The notes under the pieces are model-generated. The model had not been told where the DNA came from. It saw only the letters and a list, made by a program, of their open reading frames with translations, and did not search any database. The translations under genes and the position numbers were made by a program. Positions 1 through 9,418 of a stretch of DNA of 10,133 bases are shown piece by piece (positions within the stretch are counted from its first letter, which is position 1; each line of letters opens with the position of its first letter). Source of the DNA: Thermoplasmata archaeon (lineage in GTDB: Archaea > Thermoplasmatota > Thermoplasmata > Thermoplasmatales > Thermoplasmataceae); the NCBI GenBank assembly GCA_021835185.1, contig JAKBQO010000011.1, positions 11,371 through 21,503 of the forward strand, given 5' to 3'.

Positions 1-106
1 TGGTTAATCCCTATCTTCGTATATCTGCCAATAATCGCGAATATAGCACACTTTTGGGATATTATAATATTTTTATATATTCTCAATTATAACCGTCCTA
101 AATTAA
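1..106. other. Unassigned AT-rich left edge, possibly the tail of another transposon
   Basis: No complete gene is visible. Frame 1 on the plus strand is open from base 1 across this stretch (stop at 148-150) and near 85-111 reads NYNRPKLSG, faintly like the YNxxRPH region at the C-terminus of IS3-type integrases. That is too little to call. The stretch ends in a 26-base sequence shared with the end of the IS3-type remnant near 6076-6101, so it may be the right end of another copy of that element, inserted into the transposase remnant that begins at about 107. Confidence 0.25.
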
Positions 107-118
107 GTGGAACAGATC
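93..118 (+). repeat. Putative IS3-type element end, shared with 6076-6101
   Basis: Bases 93-118 and 6076-6101 match at 22 of 26 positions by eye, centred on the shared core AAATTAAGTGGA. At 6076-6101 this sequence is the right boundary of an IS3-type remnant. Here it falls where the homology to the large transposase of the tandem array begins. The likely reading is a second copy of the same element end that has truncated the transposase remnant. Confidence 0.4.
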
Positions 119-232
119 AAACTCATAGATACCGGTATTAATATGATCCTTGAGAATAATTTGAGTGATAATCCATACAGTGATAATGTAATGGCTCTGG
201 CAAAAGCATCACGGGACATGCATGCTTCTTAA
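107..232 (+). pseudogene. C-terminal remnant of DDE transposase (tandem-array IS family)
   Basis: The frame beginning at 107 reads to a TAA at 230-232 and encodes about 41 residues, including GINMILENNLSDNPYSDN. This aligns with the end of the intact transposase at 2996-4678 (GTRMILEDNLSDTPYNDQ), and the last residues (ALAKASRDMHAS against AAQASRNIQAA) also correspond. The same frame is closed by TAA at 104-106, and nothing of the catalytic domain is present. It is a dead fragment whose value is to show that three related elements once stood in tandem. No start codon or promoter is assigned. Confidence 0.8.
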
Positions 233-433
233 TAGATAAAATATCCATATGCAATAATATCCAGGATATATGTTTAACCGCAGGGTATTGTAAAAATAGC
301 TATTTATCAGCAATAACAGTTGAAAGTAAATAATTCTTAACATAAGTTTTAGAAATCACTGGAGATTATATGATTCCTAACAATATCAGAAGGTGTTGAT
401 ATTATTTATCCAACGGTATATAATTGCCATAGC
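107..433 (+). mobile_element. Truncated right end of a third IS of the tandem-array family
   Basis: The left part of the element is missing. What remains is the transposase C-terminus (107-232), about 170 bases of noncoding sequence, and the right terminal repeat at 403-433. The terminal 31 bases match the right end of the downstream element (4724-4754) at 26 of 31 positions, including the outermost run AATTGCCATAGC. The gap between stop codon and element end (about 200 bases) is longer than in the downstream element (76 bases), so extra sequence has been gained or the subtype differs. It is followed directly by ATTTTA and the next element. Confidence 0.75.
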
Positions 434-448
434 ATTTTAGCTATGGCA
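425..448. repeat. Perfect palindrome formed by abutting IS ends
   Basis: TGCCATAGC (425-433) is followed by the six bases ATTTTA and then its exact reverse complement GCTATGGCA (440-448). The left arm is the right terminus of the truncated element and the right arm is the left terminus of the next. The arrangement resembles the joined ends of a circularised or tandem-dimer IS. Confidence 0.85.
433..440. repeat. Target duplication or spacer copy 1 (cATTTTAg)
   Basis: ATTTTA (434-439), flanked by C and G, separates the truncated element from the first full element. The same eight bases recur at 2570-2577 and 4754-4761. The duplication is six bases (ATTTTA) or eight (CATTTTAG), depending on whether the terminal G/C belongs to the inverted repeat. 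Confidence 0.75.
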
Positions 449-510
449 GCCATTGAGTGTTGAATAATTTGTGAATTTTGTATAATTTTCATTGAAAATA
501 CATGATTTCG

Positions 511-522
511 AAAGGTTTATAT
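511..522 (+). promoter_or_regulatory. TATA promoter of first OrfA
   Basis: AAAGGTTTATAT combines a purine-rich BRE-like segment with a TATA box (TTTATAT, 516-522). The OrfA ATG at 544 lies about 25 bases from the TATA centre, so the message is probably leaderless. The segment from CGAAA through TTTATATTG is conserved at 2649-2662 in the sister element. Confidence 0.7.
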
Positions 523-524
523 TG

Positions 525-544
525 TATGTGGTAATTACCACATA
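525..544. promoter_or_regulatory. Perfect 20-bp palindrome, candidate operator over the transcription start
   Basis: TATGTGGTAATTACCACATA is a perfect dyad centred between 534 and 535. It fills the space between the TATA box and the first base of the OrfA start codon, so a bound protein would cover the expected transcription start. The sister element has an imperfect version at the same place (2662-2685). Autoregulation by an element-encoded protein is the inferred role. Confidence 0.6.
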
Positions 545-855
545 TGACATTAGTGCCACATAAGGTTAGGAGAAATGGAAAAGAATATTATGAACTGATA
601 GAGGAGAAGAGGGTTAATGGGAAGGTTGTGCAGAAGTACATAGGATACCTTGGAAAGGACCCTAAGGCAAAGAATGAGTTAAAGGCTTCAGATATATTGC
701 CATATGTGGAGAGGCTGTTAAAGCACGGAATATCACAGGAAGAGATTGATGAAATATTGAAGAAGATAGGGATAGAATACGATGCATGGCCAATAACTAA
801 AATAATTATAGAGAATGATCTGAAGCTGGATAAAATATATTTGAAGCTAAAATGA
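544..855 (+). CDS. IS accessory protein OrfA (split transposase N-terminal module)
   Basis: A 103-residue protein. Residues 7-38 (KVRRNGKEYYELIEEKRVNG to IGYLGK) match the pattern of the N-terminal arm in IS1634/IS4-type transposases: charged residues, GKxYYxLxE, a basic turn, GKVxQ, then a YLGK end. Here that arm is a separate polypeptide. The second half has an amphipathic helical stretch (GISQEEIDEILKKIGIEY) and a conserved WPITKIIIENDLKL segment shared with the sister protein at 2685-2999. It has no DDE residues, so it cannot be a transposase alone; DNA end binding or repression of its own promoter is inferred. The ATG sits at the edge of the palindrome and about 25 bases from the TATA box, which supports this start. 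Its TGA overlaps the OrfB ATG (ATGA), so the two are translationally coupled. Confidence 0.8.
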   Translation: MTLVPHKVRRNGKEYYELIEEKRVNGKVVQKYIGYLGKDPKAKNELKASDILPYVERLLKHGISQEEIDEILKKIGIEYDAWPITKIIIENDLKLDKIYLKLK

Positions 856-2429
856 TTAAAATTGCATTCAGCACTGTTCTTAATAAATGCCCTTTATGTG
901 GCAATAAGTTAAGGTTTTACAGGCCATACAGGAGAACTGCAAAATCCATTGAAGGGGATTTCATTGCTGTGCACAGGCTAAAGGTATGCAAGAATGATGG
1001 CATTGTATATAAGTCAGATAAACTGGAAGATATAATAAGGAATAAATGCACATATGCAAATGATGTAATATTAAAGGCAGCCAGGGATAGGTTCGTATAT
1101 GGGAGATCATGTTCGGAGATATCATCATATGCAGGAATATCCGAAAGGCATGCGGGAAGGGCAGGCAATAGTATTATTGAAGCATTCAGAATAAACCATT
1201 ATGGGAATATAGCAAAAATAAAAGAATTCATGGAATCGTACATACTCCAGATAGATGGCACAGCAGATTCTGAATATAATATTATAGTTGCAGCAAAGGA
1301 TGCCATTACAGGATTTGTTATAGATGCACAGCATATATTCCCGGAATCATATGGCAATATCAGGAATGTGCTTGTTAATATTAGGGAAAGGTTTGGAACA
1401 CCTTCAGGATCAATATCGGACATGAGGTCTGGAATACTGGAAGCATTGAAGGATGCATTTCCAGGAATGCCTGTAAGAATATGCCTGATGCATTTCTTAA
1501 GGGATATAGGAAAGGATTTAATGGAAATACTGCACACAGAACTGGGAATAGCTATTAGCAGGATAGGGATAAAATCGCCATTAAAGGCTATTCTGAGGGA
1601 AATGCCAGAGTATAGCCAGAAAACATTATATGATATTGAAAATGGCTATTGCAGTGACATAAATAATATGGAAATAATGGGAATAAGGCATATACTTGAG
1701 GGATTGCTATTAATAAAATCATCAGGGTATGGCTTTCCATTCACATTAAGGCATTTGAATTTCTATAATGCATGCAGGGAAGCAGAGAATAGATTGCTAA
1801 AACTATATGCAAATGTTAAGTCGAAAGAATCATTAAATTATATCAATAATATTATGCAATTATTGCAGAAAATTACGGGCAATGGTAAAATTAAAGAGAA
1901 TGCAGATAAATTGTCAAATATCAATGCAATATTCAATAAATTGAGGAAAGCCTTCAATGTGCCTGACCATGGAAATCTATCCGATGATTTAAAGGATGAT
2001 ATTGCTGCACATGAACAGTGCAATAACATTATGGATGAACTGAAAGTATACACACATGCGGATATTCCTGGATATTTAATGAAAGCAATAAAGCTTGTAA
2101 TATCAAGGTACAGGAACAGGGAAACAATGTTATTTGCCAATAATAATGAACATAGCATACCAAGGACAAACAATGGAATGGAGCAGTTCTTCAGGAAACT
2201 GAGAAGGAATATACGCAAAAGGTGTGGCAATATAGCTACAGGAAACATGCTTGCAAATAATGGCGTTTCACTTGCAATATTCCAGAATATAGAGAATAAG
2301 GATTATGTAAAGGCAGTATTTGGAAACAACAATATTGCTTCAGTACTGGCAAAGCACATTATGCCATACAGGAATAATGGAATGACACATAAAAGATTAT
2401 ACAGCTTGTTGAAAAGGGCACTGATATGA
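852..2429 (+). CDS. DDE transposase OrfB, AT-rich copy, C-terminus truncated by frameshift
   Basis: A 525-residue transposase. It has an N-terminal zinc-ribbon-like set (C13, C16, C46, C66), then a helix-turn-helix around residues 84-108 (GRSCSEISSYAGISERHAGR). The catalytic core carries D135 (QIDGT), D190 (SISDMRSG), a C211-x2-H214 motif (RICLMHFLRD) and the probable catalytic E444 (NNGMEQFFRK). The C/H motif between the second D and the E is typical of the IS256/MULE/ISL3-like group of DDE enzymes. It starts at the ATGA overlap with OrfA. Compared with the copy at 2996-4678 it stops early: the missing tail lies in the minus-one frame just downstream (2426-2503). The core looks intact, so partial function is possible. 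Codons are strongly AT-biased (ATA, AAT, TTA), unlike the sister copy. Confidence 0.9.
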   Translation: MIKIAFSTVLNKCPLCGNKLRFYRPYRRTAKSIEGDFIAVHRLKVCKNDGIVYKSDKLEDIIRNKCTYANDVILKAARDRFVYGRSCSEISSYAGISERHAGRAGNSIIEAFRINHYGNIAKIKEFMESYILQIDGTADSEYNIIVAAKDAITGFVIDAQHIFPESYGNIRNVLVNIRERFGTPSGSISDMRSGILEALKDAFPGMPVRICLMHFLRDIGKDLMEILHTELGIAISRIGIKSPLKAILREMPEYSQKTLYDIENGYCSDINNMEIMGIRHILEGLLLIKSSGYGFPFTLRHLNFYNACREAENRLLKLYANVKSKESLNYINNIMQLLQKITGNGKIKENADKLSNINAIFNKLRKAFNVPDHGNLSDDLKDDIAAHEQCNNIMDELKVYTHADIPGYLMKAIKLVISRYRNRETMLFANNNEHSIPRTNNGMEQFFRKLRRNIRKRCGNIATGNMLANNGVSLAIFQNIENKDYVKAVFGNNNIASVLAKHIMPYRNNGMTHKRLYSLLKRALI

Positions 2430-2503
2430 TAATAAACAGCAGAATAAAAGACAATCCATATACAGATAAACTGTTTCAATCAATAAAATCTGTTAAAACA
2501 TAG
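2426..2503 (+). pseudogene. Frameshifted C-terminal tail of the first transposase
   Basis: Beginning at an ATG that overlaps the OrfB stop (ATGA, 2426-2429), this 25-codon frame encodes MIINSRIKDNPYTDKLFQ and ends at TAG 2501-2503. It aligns with the C-terminal segment MILEDNLSDTPYNDQMM of the intact sister transposase. The simplest reading is a one-base change that moved the tail out of frame. A programmed minus-one shift at the join cannot be excluded, but I see no heptameric slippery site there. Confidence 0.7.
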
Positions 2504-2550
2504 AATTCTGACATGTTAATTACTGGTATAAATACTATATACAGCACAGA

Positions 2551-2570
2551 CAGTCAATGTCCGGCATAGC
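2551..2570. repeat. Right inverted repeat of the first full element
   Basis: The reverse complement of this segment begins GCTATGCCGGACATTGACTG and matches the left end at 440-459 (GCTATGGCAGCCATTGAGTG) at 16 of 20 positions. It abuts ATTTTA and then the left end of the next element. The innermost six bases of the two abutting ends (2565-2570 and 2577-2582) also form a palindrome around ATTTTA. Confidence 0.75.
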
Positions 2571-2577
2571 ATTTTAG
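2570..2577. repeat. Target duplication or spacer copy 2 (cATTTTAg)
   Basis: The same ATTTTA as at 434-439 and 4755-4760 lies exactly between the right end of the first full element and the left end of the second. It is shared by both as their flanking repeat. Confidence 0.75.
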
Positions 2578-2607
2578 CTATGGCAATTATATTCCGTTAG
2601 ATGAATA
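2577..2607. repeat. Left inverted repeat of the second full element
   Basis: Begins GCTATGGCAATTATATTCCG and pairs with the complement of 4724-4754 with only two mismatches in 31 bases. Confidence 0.85.
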
Positions 2608-2648
2608 GCAATGTTTTGTATCATTTCTTGCGTAAAATACGGCGTACC

Positions 2649-2662
2649 GAAACATTTATATT
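2649..2662 (+). promoter_or_regulatory. TATA promoter of second OrfA
   Basis: CGAAACATTTATATT contains a TATA box (TTTATAT, 2655-2661) and is almost identical to the promoter of the upstream element. The centre lies about 27 bases before the ATG at 2685, which fits a leaderless transcript and argues against the longer reading frame that opens at 2601 upstream of the TATA box. Confidence 0.7.
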
Positions 2663-2685
2663 GTGGGATGTAATTACAGTCCACA
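2662..2685. promoter_or_regulatory. Imperfect palindrome, candidate operator
   Basis: A dyad centred between 2673 and 2674 with ten of twelve base pairs matched: TGTGG on the left answers CCACA on the right, around a GTAATTAC core. It occupies the same place as the perfect 20-bp palindrome at 525-544. Keeping the dyad while the coding sequences diverged suggests selection. Confidence 0.55.
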
Positions 2686-2999
2686 TGACAGTGAGACCTA
2701 AAAAAGTAACAAGAAAGGATGGAAATACCTATTACAGCCTTGTTGACGAAAAGCGTGTGAAAGGAAAGGTTGTGCAGAAGTATGTTGGATACCTTGGAAA
2801 GGACCTGCATTCGAAGAATGAGATCAAACTGGAGGACATACTGCCCTATATCAAAAGGCTCCTGGACAAGAAGATAAGCCAGGAGGATATAGATTCGATC
2901 CTGAAGAAGATCGGGATCGAGTATGATTCATGGCCAATAACAAAGATCATGATAGAGAACGATCTCAAGCTGAAGAAGACCTTCCTGAGGCTGAAATGA
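2685..2999 (+). CDS. IS accessory protein OrfA (split transposase N-terminal module)
   Basis: A 104-residue protein starting MTVRPKKVTRKDGNTYYSLV. It is homologous along its length to the protein at 544-855, with the same GxxYYxLxxEKRVxGKVVQKYxGYLGKD arm and the same C-terminal block IGIEYDSWPITKIMIENDLKLKK. The arm resembles the N-terminus of IS1634-type transposases. A frame open from an ATG at 2601 would add 28 residues, but that start lies inside the terminal repeat and upstream of the TATA box, and it has no counterpart in the sister element, so 2685 is preferred. The TGA overlaps the transposase start in ATGA. DNA-end recognition or repression at the adjacent dyad is an inference. Confidence 0.8.
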   Translation: MTVRPKKVTRKDGNTYYSLVDEKRVKGKVVQKYVGYLGKDLHSKNEIKLEDILPYIKRLLDKKISQEDIDSILKKIGIEYDSWPITKIMIENDLKLKKTFLRLK

Positions 3000-4678
3000 T
3001 CTCGGAGATCATATTCCGGACGGATCGCACTGTCTGCCCTCAGTGCCATTCCCGTCTTGTGGAATACAAGACGGAGAGGAGGACGATCAGATCATGGGAG
3101 ATGGGCGAGTTCACCGCAGTCCATAAAATCATGGGATGCAGAAGACATGGAACAATGTTCAGATCCGAAAGGCTGAAGTCCATCGTTAATCCACACTGCA
3201 TATACGCCAATGACATCATGATTGAGGCCTCCATGGGCAGGTTCATCCATGGACTTAGCTGCTCGGAAATATCCGAACAGGGCGGGATGAGGGGAATAAG
3301 CGGGAGCCATGCAAGGAATGTGACGAACATGGCACTCCGCATATTATCCAGGATTCATGAGGAAAGCTGGAAAAAGCTGAAGGGTGCCATGCATAATTAT
3401 GTGTTGCAGATAGACGGAACGACGGATTCGAAGTTTGACATGATCGTCGTTGTAAGGGATTCGATATCTAATTTCACTCTCCATGCGGAGAAATACGCCT
3501 CGGAATCATATGAGAACATCAAGGACATCCTGATGAAGGTGAAGGAAAGATTCGGATCGCCATCAGGATCCATATCCGATATGAGATCGGGCATACTCAC
3601 CGCCCTTGCAGAGGTCTTCCATGGAATGCCCATAAGGATCTGCTTGATGCACTTTCTCAGAGACCTTGGAAAGGGTCTGATGGTGGACATGCATAACAAT
3701 CTCGGTCTCAAGATAAACAGGAAGGGGATAAAATCGGCATTGAAATCCATTCTGAGATCAATGCCTGATTACGATCAGAATACACTGGAAGAGATAGAAA
3801 ACGGGTTCTGTTCCGACCGGGGAAAGATGGAGATCATGGCCATAAGGAGAATAATTGAACCGGTTCTTTCGGTTAACGGTAGTTCAGGCTATGGATTCCC
3901 GTTCTCCCTGAACCACCTGAACTTCTTCACTTCACTGAAAGAAGCGGGAAAGCTCTTATCTGAGCTTTCAGAAAAGGCAGCAGGCGAAGAATCCATGGAA
4001 CTGATCAGCAGTGCAAGGAAATACATAGGCCGCATAGTAACCGATCAGAGCATAGTGGAAACTGCAAAGAAACTCTCCGAGGTGAACATGCTCTTCCAGA
4101 AGCTTCGATTTGCCTTCCGGATCCCGGAAAAGGGCAATCTGTCGGATGACATTCCGGATGATGCATCCATTCACGATCAGTGCAACACGGTCATAGGGGA
4201 GATGGAAGTATACCTTCATGAGAACATAGCTCCTCACATAATCAGGGCTGCGAAACACATCATTGAAAGGTACCATGAGCGTGAAATCATGCTGTTTGCA
4301 AACAACGCAGATGGAACCATGCCAAGGACGAACAACGGCATGGAGAGGTTCTTCAGGAAGATCAGGAGGAATGTGAGGAAACGAAATGGCAATACAGCAA
4401 CAGGGCATGTTCTGGCACAGAGCGGTGTCCAGCTTGCCCTGTTCCAGAACCTGGACAACCCGATCTACGTGAAAACTGTCTTTGGTTCGGATGGGATCTC
4501 CGCTGTATTTGCAAAGCGGAGAGAACATTTCAGGAAACCTGGTATGACAGTGAGCACTGTTAATAAACTCGTAGCTGATGGAACAAGAATGATACTTGAG
4601 GACAATCTGAGCGATACTCCATACAACGATCAGATGATGAATGCGGCTCAGGCGTCAAGAAATATTCAGGCCGCTTAG
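2996..4678 (+). CDS. DDE transposase OrfB, intact GC-richer copy
   Basis: A 560-residue transposase. It has a zinc-ribbon-like cysteine set (C14, C17, C48, C68) and a helix-turn-helix around residues 86-110 (GLSCSEIS to ISGSHARN). The DDE core has D140 (QIDGTTDS), D195 (SISDMRSG), C216-x2-H219 (RICLMHFLRD) and E450 (NNGMERFFRKIRRN). The frame is open from an ATG at 2930, but the start at 2996 matches the homologue and gives the same ATGA coupling to OrfA; the extra 22 residues would be OrfA sequence read in another frame. The C-terminus (ILEDNLSDTPYNDQ) is complete and serves as the standard for the two damaged relatives upstream. I place it in the broad IS256/MULE-like DDE superfamily and do not claim a named IS family. 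Confidence 0.9.
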   Translation: MISEIIFRTDRTVCPQCHSRLVEYKTERRTIRSWEMGEFTAVHKIMGCRRHGTMFRSERLKSIVNPHCIYANDIMIEASMGRFIHGLSCSEISEQGGMRGISGSHARNVTNMALRILSRIHEESWKKLKGAMHNYVLQIDGTTDSKFDMIVVVRDSISNFTLHAEKYASESYENIKDILMKVKERFGSPSGSISDMRSGILTALAEVFHGMPIRICLMHFLRDLGKGLMVDMHNNLGLKINRKGIKSALKSILRSMPDYDQNTLEEIENGFCSDRGKMEIMAIRRIIEPVLSVNGSSGYGFPFSLNHLNFFTSLKEAGKLLSELSEKAAGEESMELISSARKYIGRIVTDQSIVETAKKLSEVNMLFQKLRFAFRIPEKGNLSDDIPDDASIHDQCNTVIGEMEVYLHENIAPHIIRAAKHIIERYHEREIMLFANNADGTMPRTNNGMERFFRKIRRNVRKRNGNTATGHVLAQSGVQLALFQNLDNPIYVKTVFGSDGISAVFAKRREHFRKPGMTVSTVNKLVADGTRMILEDNLSDTPYNDQMMNAAQASRNIQAA

Positions 4679-4723
4679 AGGAAATTATGAACTTTGAGGC
4701 AATGATCCAGAGAGGCATACAAT

Positions 4724-4754
4724 TATTCACCTAACGGAATGTAATTGCCATAGC
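4724..4754. repeat. Right inverted repeat of the second full element
   Basis: Ends AACGGAATGTAATTGCCATAGC; pairs with 2577-2607 at 29 of 31 positions. It also resembles 403-433, the right end of the truncated element, at 26 of 31. Confidence 0.85.
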
Positions 4755-4761
4755 ATTTTAG
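4754..4761. repeat. Target duplication or spacer copy 3 (cATTTTAg)
   Basis: The third copy of ATTTTA (4755-4760), at the outer right edge of the tandem array, where no further IS end follows. This is likely the original host target. The G at 4761 favours the eight-base CATTTTAG reading but does not prove it. Confidence 0.7.
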
Positions 4762-4774
4762 GAAAGCTTTAATA
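4762..4774 (+). promoter_or_regulatory. Promoter of the membrane-protein gene, adjacent to the IS end
   Basis: GAAAGCTTTAATA reads as a BRE-like purine run followed by a TATA element (CTTTAATA). The expected transcription start is near 4796, just before the ATG at 4809. The array inserted immediately upstream of this box. Confidence 0.45.
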
Positions 4775-5610: not shown

Positions 5611-6095
5611 CTTTATTATTTGGACAGTTACCAAGTGGAATATGAGGAAGTGATATAATGGAGAAATTTACATCAGATGAAAAGGTAGAATAGTAATAGA
5701 ATCATTTACAACTAATAGTATAGCAGAGCTATGCAGGAGGCATGGGAGTATTAGGAGCCAACTTCTATAAATGGAGGGATAAATTTATAGAATCTGGGAA
5801 AACGGGATTCTATGGAGCCGGCAGATCTGGAGATAATGAATACCAGAAAGAATGAAAAATTGAAAAGGCTGGTAGGTGACCAAGCACTGGTTATCGATGA
5901 GTAAAAAAAATTATAGAGGAAAGAGATAATGGGAACAGTAAACAGCCTTAGAAATAAACGGAATTCAGGAACAGGTTTATGGATGGGATAAAGAAAAAAG
6001 AGGAAAGGAGATTGAGAAACAGGAAAATTAATATGAAGAGGATGAATAGAAGTGTCTCAACATTACACTAAAAAACTGTCCAAAATTAAGTGGAG
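5611..6095 (+). mobile_element. Degenerate, internally deleted IS3-type element
   Basis: An 11-bp perfect inverted repeat, TTTGGACAGTT at 5619-5629 and AACTGTCCAAA at 6074-6084, brackets a decayed OrfA and the beginning of an OrfB. The right end continues into AATTAAGTGGA, also seen at 93-118. The interior is only about 450 bases, so most of OrfB is gone. Outer limits are approximate because no clear target duplication could be seen. Confidence 0.55.
5658..6041 (+). pseudogene. IS3-family OrfA with a vestige of OrfB, multiply frameshifted
   Basis: Patching the frames together gives MEKFTSDEKVE, then VIESFTTNSIAELCRRHG, FYKWRDKFIESGKTGFYGAG, EYQKE, KLKRLVGDQALVIDE and KKIIEE. This is the canonical layout of an IS3-type OrfA: a helix-turn-helix (IAELCRRHG followed by FYKWRDKF) and then a leucine-zipper-like coiled coil. 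At least four frame changes or stops interrupt it. From about 5940 another frame reads TALEINGIQEQVYGWDKEKRGKEIEKQEN, resembling the start of OrfB (a NGIxxxxYYxW motif), but no integrase core follows before the element end. It is non-functional. Confidence 0.75.
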
Positions 6096-6927
6096 CAGGT
6101 CGGAGAACAATGTTATCACTGCTTTATTATATTGGATTATTCTCGGTTTGTTCCTCTATTCTTACCTGGAGTCCGATAATCCACTATCCCTTTCCGTGGT
6201 ATCCGACCGTCTGGTAGACGCCTTGTCGATATCAATGATTTTCCTGGTTAACCGAATTTCGAATAAACCTACGGATGAATTTCACTCATACGGTTTCCAT
6301 AGAGTCGAGGCACTGCTGAATATCACGATTATCACACTGTTCATTGCAATCTCAGCATATTCTGCAATACTCACAACGGAATTGCTGATACACGGCATTC
6401 CAATCTCAAGTGGCAGCACCGCCTTATCGGCTATAATAGCCATTCCGTTGCTGATAGTGGCAGGAGTTACTATTGAACATGACGAAAAGTCCAACTTCAG
6501 GATTATGTTCATTCATACACTGCAGGACCTTGCAATAATGATTATAGTACTGGCATTCTCGCTACTGCCGTTCTACTTCTTCAGCCAGTATCTTGACTAC
6601 CTGGGGAGCTACATTGTTCTCTTCATAATACTATACGGAAACCGCAATATGTTCAGGAGAAACGTTAACATACTGCTCGAAGGCTCTTCCGTCAGTGTCA
6701 AAGAGGTTGAAGAGATGATTAGGAAGGAGTTTCCAAGTGTACATCATCTGCACATCTGGGACATATGCCAGCACCAGAGAGTGGCCACCCTGCATATGAG
6801 TATACCTTCTCAGATGCAGATAGGTGAACTTGATTCCGTGAGGAAAGACATCGAAAGAATACTGTCAAAATACGGTGTCAATCATGTTACAGTACAATTT
6901 GAGTCCAACAATGGAGACAATATCTAA
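6052..6927 (+). CDS. Cation diffusion facilitator (CDF) family metal efflux transporter
   Basis: A 291-residue membrane protein that likely exports Zn2+ or a similar divalent metal in exchange for protons. Site A is intact: D52-x3-D56 in helix 2 (SDRLVDALS) and H155-x3-D159 in helix 5 (FIHTLQDLA). The loop after helix 2 carries PTDEFHSYGFHRVEALL, the CDF signature around DxxH. About six transmembrane helices precede a cytoplasmic domain (from about residue 213) with VHHLHIWDICQHQRVATLHM, the family's metal-binding fold. The GTG at 6052 is the only plausible start: an in-frame stop lies at 6043-6045, and the next in-frame ATG is inside helix 2. The first roughly 17 codons lie in the right end of the IS3-type remnant, so the N-terminus and promoter may be IS-derived. 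Metal specificity cannot be read from the sequence. Confidence 0.9.
   Translation: MSQHYTKKLSKIKWSRSENNVITALLYWIILGLFLYSYLESDNPLSLSVVSDRLVDALSISMIFLVNRISNKPTDEFHSYGFHRVEALLNITIITLFIAISAYSAILTTELLIHGIPISSGSTALSAIIAIPLLIVAGVTIEHDEKSNFRIMFIHTLQDLAIMIIVLAFSLLPFYFFSQYLDYLGSYIVLFIILYGNRNMFRRNVNILLEGSSVSVKEVEEMIRKEFPSVHHLHIWDICQHQRVATLHMSIPSQMQIGELDSVRKDIERILSKYGVNHVTVQFESNNGDNI
6076..6101 (+). repeat. Right end of IS3-type remnant, overlapping the CDF reading frame
   Basis: Matches bases 93-118 at 22 of 26 positions (shared core AAATTAAGTGGA) and includes the 11-bp inverted repeat partner of 5619-5629. It encodes LSKIKWSRS of the predicted CDF protein. Confidence 0.45.
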
Positions 6928-7004: not shown

Positions 7005-7424
7005 ATGGCAGTTGACTGTTTTCGCAAAATTACAAAAAATGATCTGGTTAAATTGATGGATAATGCTGCAGATCTAGTACGGACATCTGTGGATTACAAA
7101 TATATTCTGATTCTCTTATTTATTAAAAGACTGAGTGACGGGTGGAAAGAGGAAGTTGAGGATGCCATGTCAAAAATCATGGAGGAAGCAGGCATTGACG
7201 AATCAGAGGCAGGCAAACGTGCAGTCAGCAATGAATTCCATAACTTTATGGTTCCTGAGAATGCTCTCTGTAACAATATAAGGAAAGATAGGGAAAAGCT
7301 CAAAGAAAACATGTCAAGGGGTATAAATGAAATAGCAAAGGAAAACAAAGAGCTTGATGAAATAGTAAATAGAATAGATTTCATAGATTTGAGATTACAG
7401 AGTATATTTTATTATATGATTTGA
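7005..7424 (+). pseudogene. Type I restriction-modification HsdM, N-terminal domain only
   Basis: A 139-residue product. Residues 12-37 (DLVKLMDNAADLVRTSVDYK to LFIKRLSD) match the N-terminal helical domain of HsdM, the DNA methyltransferase subunit of type I systems (family pattern: a helix, LR...vda.dYk.viL.LiFlK.lSd). Residues 70-125 (VSNEFHNFMVPENA to VNRIDF) continue that domain, including the F-x-VP-x-x-A segment and the long helix ending in RIDF. Intact HsdM proteins are usually around 500 residues and then carry a SAM-binding domain with an NPPF/Y catalytic motif; neither is present, and the frame ends IFYYMI-stop. No hsdS or hsdR is visible. The promoter and start look intact, so a short peptide may still be made, but it cannot methylate DNA. 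Deletion of the rest of the locus is the likely history. Confidence 0.75.
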
Positions 7425-7504: not shown

Positions 7505-7753
7505 GGATAATCTAACATAGAAAATGATAATCCCAACCAAGGTTGCTTTATTTTGAAAACCATGACTATAAGTTTAACTGAATATTTTATAGAAAGGTAG
7601 ATAGAAAAATACCTCATACCTTAAATAACTGTATATAACCAAAATATTGTGGAGGGTTGGAATTATCTCCATGTCAATTATATACCATTGGGTGAAATCC
7701 AGGTTTATGCCGGTTTCTGTATGTATTTCTTAAGGGGAAGTTAATCTCTTTTA

Positions 7754-8364: not shown

Positions 8365-9390
8365 TTAAAAATTTCTCTTTGACGCACTGAATTTTATGTA
8401 ATCTATAGTGGCATCTATTATTCTGCTTTTTACCATTGCCGGCCTTGTCCATTTAAACAGGGAAGGTTCAAGGTAACATGATAATGCACATTTATTGCAG
8501 GTTCTGTAGGGTTCCCAGTCAAATGTGTTCCACATCTTTTTAATGTCTATGTTCCATACATAATCAGATCCTGAATATTCGTTGATGATATAGCATGGGG
8601 TCACAACCCTGCCCTCCGGGTCAATGTTTATGGTAAGCCATGGCCTGCATTCCCATTTATATCCGTAAAACCAGGAATCCCTTATTGCCTCAAAATACTG
8701 TACAGTATTCATTATAGGGCCATCGGCTTTCTTCCTATCAATAAGCATATTCAGAGCGCCAAGGAGTTTTTCCTTTTCGGGTGATATTTTCTCTGCTGTT
8801 GAATAGTCATATTCTATCTGAAAATTTATCGGGACTTCTAACTTATCACCTAGATCAAGTATATCTCCTATGCTATCTATGTTTTCTCTTGTAATTGTTG
8901 AACTCATGGCAACTGGTACCATATGTTTTGATGCATTGATTCCCCTTACTGCATGCTCAAATGAACCCTGCATTCCCCTCATGGTATCGTGCACCTCTTT
9001 GCTTCCATCAATAGAGACAAAAAGGAAATCTAAAGAATTGTGTATTTCATTTATTTTCTTCTCAAGGCGCCATCCATTTGTTACCATGGATGTATGAAAT
9101 CTCTTGTGGCTTTCTTTCAATATTTCCGGGGTATCATTTCTAAGAAGGGGCTCACCGCCCTCAAATCCAAGGTATGACACTCCACCCTCTTTCAGTTTTT
9201 CCATCATTGCTATTTCCTGTTCCATAGACAGAAGTTTGCTATCTGGCCTCCTCCAGAACGGACACATTTTGCATCTTAAGTTGCATTCATACAATAGCTT
9301 ATGGCCTGCTATTGTAGGTAACTTTTTATTCTTAACTCTCGACATGTTTCTTTTTATGGATCTTAAAACAACTGCATTATAAACCGACAT
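8365..9390 (-). CDS. Radical SAM protein with SPASM-like C-terminal cysteines
   Basis: A 341-residue protein from the ATG at 9390. The radical SAM motif C36-x3-C40-x2-C43 (ECNLRCKMCPFW) binds the 4Fe-4S cluster that cleaves S-adenosylmethionine. GFEGGEPLLR (about residues 75-84) is the SAM-binding GGE motif, and FLFVSIDGSKEVHDTMRG is a typical middle block of the barrel. The C-terminus has C248, C266 (PCY) and C298-x2-C301-x3-C305, a SPASM-like pattern expected to hold auxiliary Fe-S cluster(s). The reaction and substrate are unknown; relatives include peptide-modifying and HpnH-like lipid enzymes, and no precursor peptide or lipid gene lies alongside. An in-frame TTG at 9402 would add four residues. 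The gene is monocistronic with its own TATA box, downstream of the DHH gene on the same strand. Confidence 0.85.
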   Translation of the reverse strand: MSVYNAVVLRSIKRNMSRVKNKKLPTIAGHKLLYECNLRCKMCPFWRRPDSKLLSMEQEIAMMEKLKEGGVSYLGFEGGEPLLRNDTPEILKESHKRFHTSMVTNGWRLEKKINEIHNSLDFLFVSIDGSKEVHDTMRGMQGSFEHAVRGINASKHMVPVAMSSTITRENIDSIGDILDLGDKLEVPINFQIEYDYSTAEKISPEKEKLLGALNMLIDRKKADGPIMNTVQYFEAIRDSWFYGYKWECRPWLTINIDPEGRVVTPCYIINEYSGSDYVWNIDIKKMWNTFDWEPYRTCNKCALSCYLEPSLFKWTRPAMVKSRIIDATIDYIKFSASKRNF

Positions 9391-9418
9391 AAAACTACCC
9401 AACTAATAATAACCTATC

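Follow-up and report, generated by a model that had tools for sequence, protein, structure and literature searches.

How three related members of one insertion-element family came to stand end to end, with the same few bases at every junction, is the question raised by this window, a 10,133-nucleotide stretch of DNA from a Thermoplasmata archaeon. A single 8-bp repeat, CATTTTAG, occurs at 433-440, 2570-2577 and 4754-4761; family ends flank both sides of the first two copies, and host DNA lies to the right of the third. A sequence-only reading had placed ATTTTA at 434-439, 2571-2576 and 4755-4760. These positions are correct and the same sequence does stand at each junction, but the repeat is 8 bp long rather than 6. 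A 6-bp duplication is ruled out because copies elsewhere show the tips CTATGG..CCATAG followed by duplications of 8 bp, which sets the element bounds at 441-2569 and 2578-4753. The array comprises the following features.

1-118, minus strand: end fragment of another IS, here named ISX, which interrupts the oldest array member (sequence matches)
119-432, plus strand: tr, the right part and right end of a third, older family member (tip at 432; right-tip PWM score 32.4)
433-440, no strand: CATTTTAG, 8-bp target copy at the junction of tr and the AT-rich element (junction comparison)
441-2569, plus strand: AT-rich element, 2129 bp, ends CTATGGCAGCC.. / CTATGCCGGAC.. (target duplication 8/8; G+C 34.7%)
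544-855, plus strand: AT-rich element ORF1, 103 aa (shares 70% identity with its GC-richer counterpart)
852-2429, plus strand: ORF2 of the AT-rich element, DDE transposase, 525 aa (homology)
2570-2577, no strand: CATTTTAG at the junction of the AT-rich and GC-richer elements (also present in Fer1, G036 and UBA567)
2578-4753, plus strand: GC-richer element, 2176 bp, near-perfect terminal inverted repeats, 29/31 (repeat search 94%; G+C 45.8%)
2685-2999, plus strand: GC-richer element ORF1, 104 aa, counted from ATG 2685 (sequence; 70% identity to the other ORF1)
2996-4678, plus strand: ORF2 of the GC-richer element, DDE transposase, 560 aa, overlapping ORF1 by ATGA (homology; D140, D195, E450, C216 and H219 invariant)
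4754-4761, no strand: CATTTTAG, right outer target copy (junction comparison)
4762-4771, no strand: host half-site GAAAGCTTTA, fitting the nAAAnnTTTA preference in full (sequence, preference scoring)

The elements belong to a family of Thermoplasmata that encodes an ORF1 protein of 103-104 aa and a DDE transposase of 525-560 aa, has ends starting CTATGGC and duplicates 8 bp of its target. In our table of target duplications, where rows were retained only if at least 6 of the 8 positions matched, the two copies were identical in 11 of the 12 elements with both ends and matched at 7 of 8 positions in one. The five residues listed above are invariant in 52 transposase sequences, and a match to PF10551 falls below its cut-off; the DDE triad with the C..H pair is what we take to be the motif of the MULE-type fold. 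ORF1 has no family in Pfam or NCBIfam. Among the 60 matches listed in a PDB sequence search there were only influenza haemagglutinin stem chains, with E-values of 0.003 or worse, which we judged to be chance coiled-coil similarity.

As the earlier reading held, the array members are diverged and not the product of simple tandem amplification: the AT-rich and GC-richer copies fall on separate lineages of the family, with transposases 49% and ORF1 proteins 70% identical, and the G+C content of tr is 30.6%. The right end earlier ascribed to a truncated element is indeed present, but tr is larger than a mere end. In UBA567 it resumes upstream, beyond the ISX fragment, and its pieces on the two sides of that fragment correspond to ORF2 residues 398-521 and 524-560. 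The C terminus of the AT-rich ORF2 in the window is probably frameshifted, since the Fer1 copy has one extra A and a longer reading frame. Decay of the copies suggests insertion in the order tr, AT-rich, GC-richer, as the last has the best repeats and open ORFs.

The array is not an assembly collapse, one of the conditions under which the earlier claim would have fallen: UBA567, 99.3% identical over 8.7 kb, carries every one of the three junctions, and junctions 2 and 3 are present in the complete F. acidarmanus Fer1 genome and in G036. Positions 1-124 of the window are matched at 98.4% in all three, in inverted orientation. In Fer1 the tail of the AT-rich element is a mosaic, its left alleles being those of a second AT-type copy and its right alleles those of the array copy. 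The array is reduced in Fer1 and G036, a pattern that recombination between copies could produce. A search for an empty site gave none; in relatives, conservation of the right flank begins only at about query base 123, and therefore the empty-site junction could not be aligned.

Six genomes hold seven further loci with end-to-end abutments, each locus with its own 8-mer, so the arrangement reflects more than chance insertion. Eight of the nine junctions are spaced by exactly 8 bp, and the ninth sits 1 bp inside the resident tip. A pattern scan of 400 genomes of the class, allowing spacers of 4-12 bp, gave 26 end-to-end candidates, ten of them at 8 bp. When both ends were scored with a 24-nt end profile, all eight confirmed sites, representing five loci and five different 8-mers, were at 8 bp, and none of the 16 candidates at other spacings was confirmed; at a score of 10 the profile yielded 158 matches in real against five in reversed sequence. 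Two candidates at 8 bp were rejected (G368, end scores 5.8/-13.2; G164, 4.1/-11.3), as were G105 and G296 on end scoring. One-mismatch scans with inspection added two more loci at 8 bp, G260 C34 and G091, the latter with one end scoring just 6.5 and mismatched outer flanks. The 7-bp control of these scans produced 18 sites, and scoring of 12 distinct ones and one duplicate revealed a single true family abutment, G260 C169, which is the junction that falls 1 bp within the resident's end; another 7-bp site (G384, 11.4/12.5) lacked element structure on inspection. The 9-bp control gave five sites, none passing. A scan of the order (117 genomes) revealed no new locus among 28 sites scored, G343 and G293 being rejected. 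None of 13 pattern matches in viral contigs was confirmed, and plasmids gave 12 records with remote matches below 30% identity, none covering 80%.

G278 has no outer flank. The outer 8-mer equals the spacer in Ferroplasma (CATTTTAG), in G397 (GTCCAATG, at an IRL-IRL junction) and in G160 (GGTTCTAA), while at G260 C34 the outer copies of the spacer ACATCAAA match at 8/8 on the right and 6/8 on the left. A separate copy, with the flanks GGTACATA/GGTACACA, shares 90% identity over 1055 bp with the G397 element. In G188 the sequence to the right of the second 312-bp copy differs from the spacer and a matching 8-mer lies at another family end 2.9 kb on; the far-side 8-mer equals the spacer there only if a 3.2-kb unit moved. 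At one locus (L003), we observed that the flank is duplicated and that two left ends lie about 700 bp from each other.

Abutting is a minority habit. At loci found by transposase homology it involves 6 of 52 distinct ends, or 2 of 47, both from one locus, when the array in the window is excluded. A relative was abutted by three of the eight full copies of a 181-bp derivative, which, like the 312-bp one, had been picked as a query after copies were seen abutting; a 222-bp derivative picked without that knowledge abutted in none of six rows. The setting is that of acid-loving archaea in which different family members pile up in rows, only sometimes landing on relatives' ends.

The sequence-only reading had asked whether CATTTTAG or neighbouring IS ends are in excess as targets. 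An excess of family ends is present, the outcome that it had named as support, whereas insertions elsewhere have unrelated 8-mers, which it had set as evidence against a sequence preference. All 18 tabulated targets differ, the closest pair sharing 7 of 8 positions on opposite strands, which rules out CATTTTAG as a specific target. The family does have a weak symmetric (palindromic) host preference, with nAAAnnTTTA flanking the 8 bp on either side.

We conclude, with a probability of roughly 0.78, that the family chooses targets of two kinds and that the three different members in the window were stacked in this way. The first kind would be AT-rich, weakly palindromic host sites carrying the above motif, and the second the position directly against the end of a resident family member. 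In the latter case, the incoming element would make its two joins at the resident tip and 8 bp farther out, duplicating the resident's own 8-bp target copy and giving the structure end-8bp-element-8bp; repeated rounds would yield an array with the same 8-mer at every junction. This supports the earlier suggestion that the family inserts beside copies already present, duplicating one and the same target at every round, with the resident end rather than CATTTTAG as the feature that recurs. The pattern suggests that the family enzyme treats relatives' ends as landing sites, and presumably the resident inverted repeat is a docking point for the transposase itself. We slightly favour a version in which any related inverted repeat already in place, including those of short derivatives and of members about 50% different in transposase, can be captured by the strand-transfer complex and serve as a target half-site, whichever way it faces and with the normal 8-bp duplication.

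The same arrays might arise if the original AT-rich target simply stayed a hot spot, its host half-site and 8 bp remaining available to later members that need not recognise the resident. Besides the existence of the host preference, this is favoured by the right flanks of Ferroplasma (GAAAGCTTTA) and G260 C34, which fit it fully, and by the order proposed for the window, which always leaves the newest member next to the host half-site. Moreover, the host half-site alone is good in four of the five scored abutting events (top 0.1-4.3%), and host sequence may therefore contribute to the choice of abutting sites. When the resident tip makes up the second half, however, 1.4%, 7.7%, 8.6%, 26.5% and 62.4% of genomic positions score equally well in the five events, by arithmetic some tens of thousands of alternatives per 1.9-Mb genome, so host preference does not account for that choice. 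As a half-site the tip ranks from ordinary to poor, equalled by 31-54% of genomic 8-mers, which leaves it unsupported as a mimic of the preferred host half-site; at G260 C169, where the insertion is offset by 1 bp into the resident, the host half-site is a poor one (65% as good). Simple re-use of the site thus seems unlikely to us.

An IS30-like reaction is also conceivable, in which a circle or tandem dimer recombines through its joined ends with a resident end by single-strand transfer and imports the circle's own spacer. IS256 relatives do use circles, with spacers of 6-8 bp in ISCth4 and of 5, 6, 7 and 19 bp in IS256 (PMC7780238, accessible part), and IS30 inserts beside its own inverted repeats. 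Against this, the spacer in readable cases equals the outer 8-mer and has the length of the duplication, as expected of two-strand insertion with target duplication, whereas a circle-borne spacer need not match; moreover, the IRL-IRL junction in G397 departs from the IS30 pattern given below. Integration of circles or dimers, which the earlier reading had proposed, is therefore not needed and appears quite improbable, although circles may serve as the donor form. Unequal recombination, tandem amplification or misassembly is very improbable: family copies do recombine, as the Fer1 mosaic shows, but for the window such an origin is already contradicted by the divergence of the members and the junctions in other assemblies, and in another genome derivatives of different size abut with matching 8-mers. 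Hardly more credible is random insertion with survival of those copies that landed harmlessly beside residents. Compact genomes dense in essential sequence would, on general knowledge, favour such an outcome, yet it predicts many positions in and around residents, while the profile-confirmed divergent ends within 0-200 bp at the loci examined are all at 8 bp (a count without the 7-bp case G260 C169), and this peak itself contradicts it.

Dual targeting has parallels in several known systems. The double insertions of the Drosophila P element, where a second copy enters the existing 8-bp duplication beside the resident one, are similar, although this element is eukaryotic. IS30, according to the accessible part of PMC9333248, has two target modes, hot spots and its own inverted repeats, and inserts flush with resident ends; the resulting IR-IR junctions have a 2-bp spacer, are exclusively IRL-IRR and were proposed to form by single-strand transfer. 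Our family likewise has two modes, one flush with resident ends. Unlike IS30, it has 8-bp spacers, an IRL-IRL junction, outer 8-mers equal to the spacer and diverged members that target each other. Our best reading is that end-targeting here resembles the IS30 mode, the new features being the fresh 8-bp duplication, both orientations and crossing between diverged members.

By profile search, the transposase is remotely similar to those of IS256 and ISH6. IS256-family elements such as ISCth4 transpose by copy-out/paste-in and make 8-bp A/T-rich target duplications (PMC7780238, in part), as the family does; the consulted part of that paper describes no abutment habit. The family differs in scoring far below the curated cut-off of the NCBIfam IS256 profile NF033543 (32.5 and 28.5 bits against 150), in having two ORFs, and in ends that start CTATGGC and lack the subterminal TGTAAA quoted for IS256 in the same source, a motif absent on reading from all 19 end sequences (24 nt). 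ISH6, an archaeal Mutator-type element, also duplicates an AT-rich 8-bp target but prefers AANATNTT inside the duplication (PMC3942029, accessible part), whereas the strongest preference of our family lies outside it; the match to the ISH6 profile is weak (24 bits, cut-off 240). In the targeted conservative reaction of IS26 a resident copy likewise serves as the target for an incoming one (PMC4894685, in part); that reaction occurs between IS26 copies with no target duplication, whereas our family duplicates 8 bp and its members differ. In the literature searched, mostly without subscription papers, we recognised no report of this family's arrays.

Target choice in IS256/Mutator-type elements has so far been poorly explained. 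If the proposed reading is true, resident copies are landing pads, or "safe harbours", where different lineages stack. A family that follows a soft host motif, also targets the ends of relatives precisely and still duplicates its target normally would uncouple the recognition of ends from the kind of junction reaction proposed for IS30. Natural arrays would record the order of insertions, and the same habit would explain clusters of unrelated IS copies, which annotators may take for composite transposons. Such clusters feed rearrangement, and the reduced array in Fer1 and G036 may be an example.

Three elements stand in the same orientation in the window: two are complete, with two genes each, and the third is represented by its right part. 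Comparison with copies elsewhere set the element tips as CTATGG..CCATAG and the duplication as 8 bp, which makes the junction unit CATTTTAG. The three junctions with a repeated target, seen in the sequence-only reading as a shared ATTTTA, were thus borne out with this longer unit, and the whole array is also present in a second assembly, UBA567 (contig DAUP01000041.1).

Array features in the window, all elements in the same orientation
119..432, right part of the oldest element, broken by a fragment of another IS (ISX, 1..118); its upstream part is visible in UBA567
433-440, CATTTTAG
441..2569, AT-rich element
2570-2577, CATTTTAG
2578..4753, GC-richer element
4754-4761, CATTTTAG

ORF1 shares an ATGA overlap with ORF2 in each full element and is preceded by a TTTATATT box ~25 nt 5' of its start. 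A palindrome directly 5' of ORF1 in the AT-rich element (GTGGTAATTACCAC, 529-542) is a possible operator. The ORF2 frame of this element stops early (525 aa; region 2411-2429), as an A-run in it is one A shorter than in Ferroplasma acidarmanus Fer1.

The transposases matched the IS256, IS256 Zn-variant, IS1249, and ISH6 profiles weakly (best 32.5 bits, cut-off 150), and D140, D195, E450, and C216/H219 are invariant in 52 aligned sequences. The AT-rich and GC-richer transposases fall on separate branches of the tree. A word-limited protein search yielded at least 111 relatives. Scanning genomes produced 18 loci, and the titles of their records are all Ferroplasma, Ferroplasmaceae, Thermoplasmatales, Thermoplasmata, or Thermoplasmatota; with up to three candidates per genome scored and weak matches counted, at least 63 of 400 genomes of the class have a match (E 0.001 or better).

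To find abutting ends, we scanned the 400 genomes for diverging tips 4-12 bp apart. This gave 26 sites (spacing:sites, 4:4, 5:1, 6:4, 7:1, 8:10, 9:0, 10:1, 11:1, 12:4). Both tips passed the 24-nt end profile at eight sites, every one spaced by 8 bp, and at none of the 16 sites with other spacings. The eight sites represent five loci.

Profile-confirmed loci with 8-bp spacers
Ferroplasma locus, three genomes, two junctions
G397, spacer GTCCAATG
G188, spacer GTTTAACA
G278, spacer GATGAACC
G160, spacer GGTTCTAA

When one mismatch was tolerated, a scan of 38 genomes, mostly ones with a family match, turned up 10 sites with 8-bp spacing, 18 with 7-bp spacing, and five with 9-bp spacing. Those at 8 bp included two further cases of stacked short derivatives, one arranged as ACGTTAAA-[222-type]-ACATCAAA-[181-type]-ACATCAAA (G260, contig C34), the other a decayed pair with spacer TATGAAAC (G091). 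None of the five 9-bp sites passed end scoring, and one of the 12 distinct 7-bp sites scored was real (G260, contig C169). There, the 181-bp derivative is flanked by an 8/8 duplication, TCTGATAC, that overlaps the neighbor's tip by one base, its own last and the tip's first, so the insertion point lies 1 bp within the resident end. In G188 (contig C81), a 3169-bp stretch (L112:321-3489) delimited by two different family ends has GTTTAACA on each side and adjoins a 312-bp derivative; it may be a compound unit moved as one. At L003:2857-3556, a flank of ~700 bp is present twice, each copy closed by a family left end.

The loci identified through transposase homology have 52 distinct ends (profile score at least 13, flank at least 32 bp), of which 6 abut another end; the figures fall to 2 of 47 if the window's own array is set aside. 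A search of 117 genomes from the order covered three short derivatives; every candidate was scored for the 181-bp one and up to six per genome for the others. The 181-bp derivative has eight full copies in two genomes; seven have 8/8 duplications, no two alike, and three abut a family end. Among the matches listed, abutment was seen in none of six rows for the 222-bp derivative, and the 312-bp one gave one abutting pair in 10 rows, partial copies counted. The 181- and 312-bp rates are biased upward, as these queries were chosen for already known abutments.

The duplications do not share a sequence. Of 12 elements with both ends, 11 have 8/8 and one 7/8 duplications (the list took in only pairs with at least 6/8), and all 18 tabulated targets differ, the nearest two having 7/8 in common on opposite strands. 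Over 1055 bp, the stacked G397 element shares 90% identity with a shortened stand-alone copy in I-plasma, which has another 8-mer. Of the two explanations in the sequence-only reading, the first, that the family inserts beside existing copies into the same target and duplicates it each time, is supported, with the resident end rather than a shared sequence as the target.

Outside the duplication, we found a symmetric preference, nAAAnnTTTA (31 half-sites; 26 without the abutting events). With both half-sites scored together as one site against 47,876 positions from four stretches, 1.4-62.4% of positions score equal to or better than the five abutting events, and 0.13-24% do so for stand-alone targets, each left out in turn; the host half-site taken alone is good in four of five abutting events. 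These scores indicate that the host motif probably guided the initial insertion at several loci and may assist subsequent ones, but that it does not set the resident edge apart.

Most likely, the incoming complex docks on a resident inverted repeat. One strand would then join at the resident tip and the second at a point 8 bp outward of it, so that the resident's 8-mer, of any sequence, is copied anew. This fits the head-to-tail junctions in Ferroplasma and G278, the head-to-head one in G397, and the 1-bp shift. An IS30-like circle reaction would produce IRL-IRR junctions exclusively and could leave a foreign spacer (PMC9333248). This geometry may plausibly stem from figure-eight formation of the ISCth4 type, in which an end attacks the DNA flanking the other end, 6-8 bp away from it (PMC7780238).

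Elsewhere in the window, 5619-6101 is a remnant of another IS with inverted ends TTTGGACAGT../..AACTGTCCAAA, one of which resembles 91-118; a CDF transporter ORF called at 6052 begins within it. A solo decayed family-like end, CCATGTCAATTATATACCATTGGG, lies at 7669-7696 (profile score 11.3 in UBA567). A lone HsdM N-terminal domain (7005-7424, 139 aa) is probably what is left of a type I modification gene, and 8365-9402 encodes a PTO1314-family radical SAM protein (NCBIfam TIGR03961, 523.6 bits).

In the complete Fer1 genome (NC_021592.1) and in G036, the GC-richer element has CATTTTAG on both sides, and the AT-rich one is reduced to a tail, cut by ISX at window position 2289. About 5 kb upstream, UBA567 carries a second tail of the AT type, whose right flank differs. 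The Fer1 tail is chimeric: two positions in its left part have the alleles of the second copy, and array-copy alleles follow further right; the G036 tail has array alleles all along. The simplest reading is that AT-type copies recombined and that part of the array was thereby probably lost in Fer1 and G036. We found no reports of arrays of this family in the open-access literature searched. The finding appears to be a case of IS-end targeting, in a new variant. The second tail and the chimeric Fer1 tail (G002:C86, reverse coordinates 6013-6657 and 9033-11760; Fer1; G036) suggest that the array became shorter when family copies recombined.
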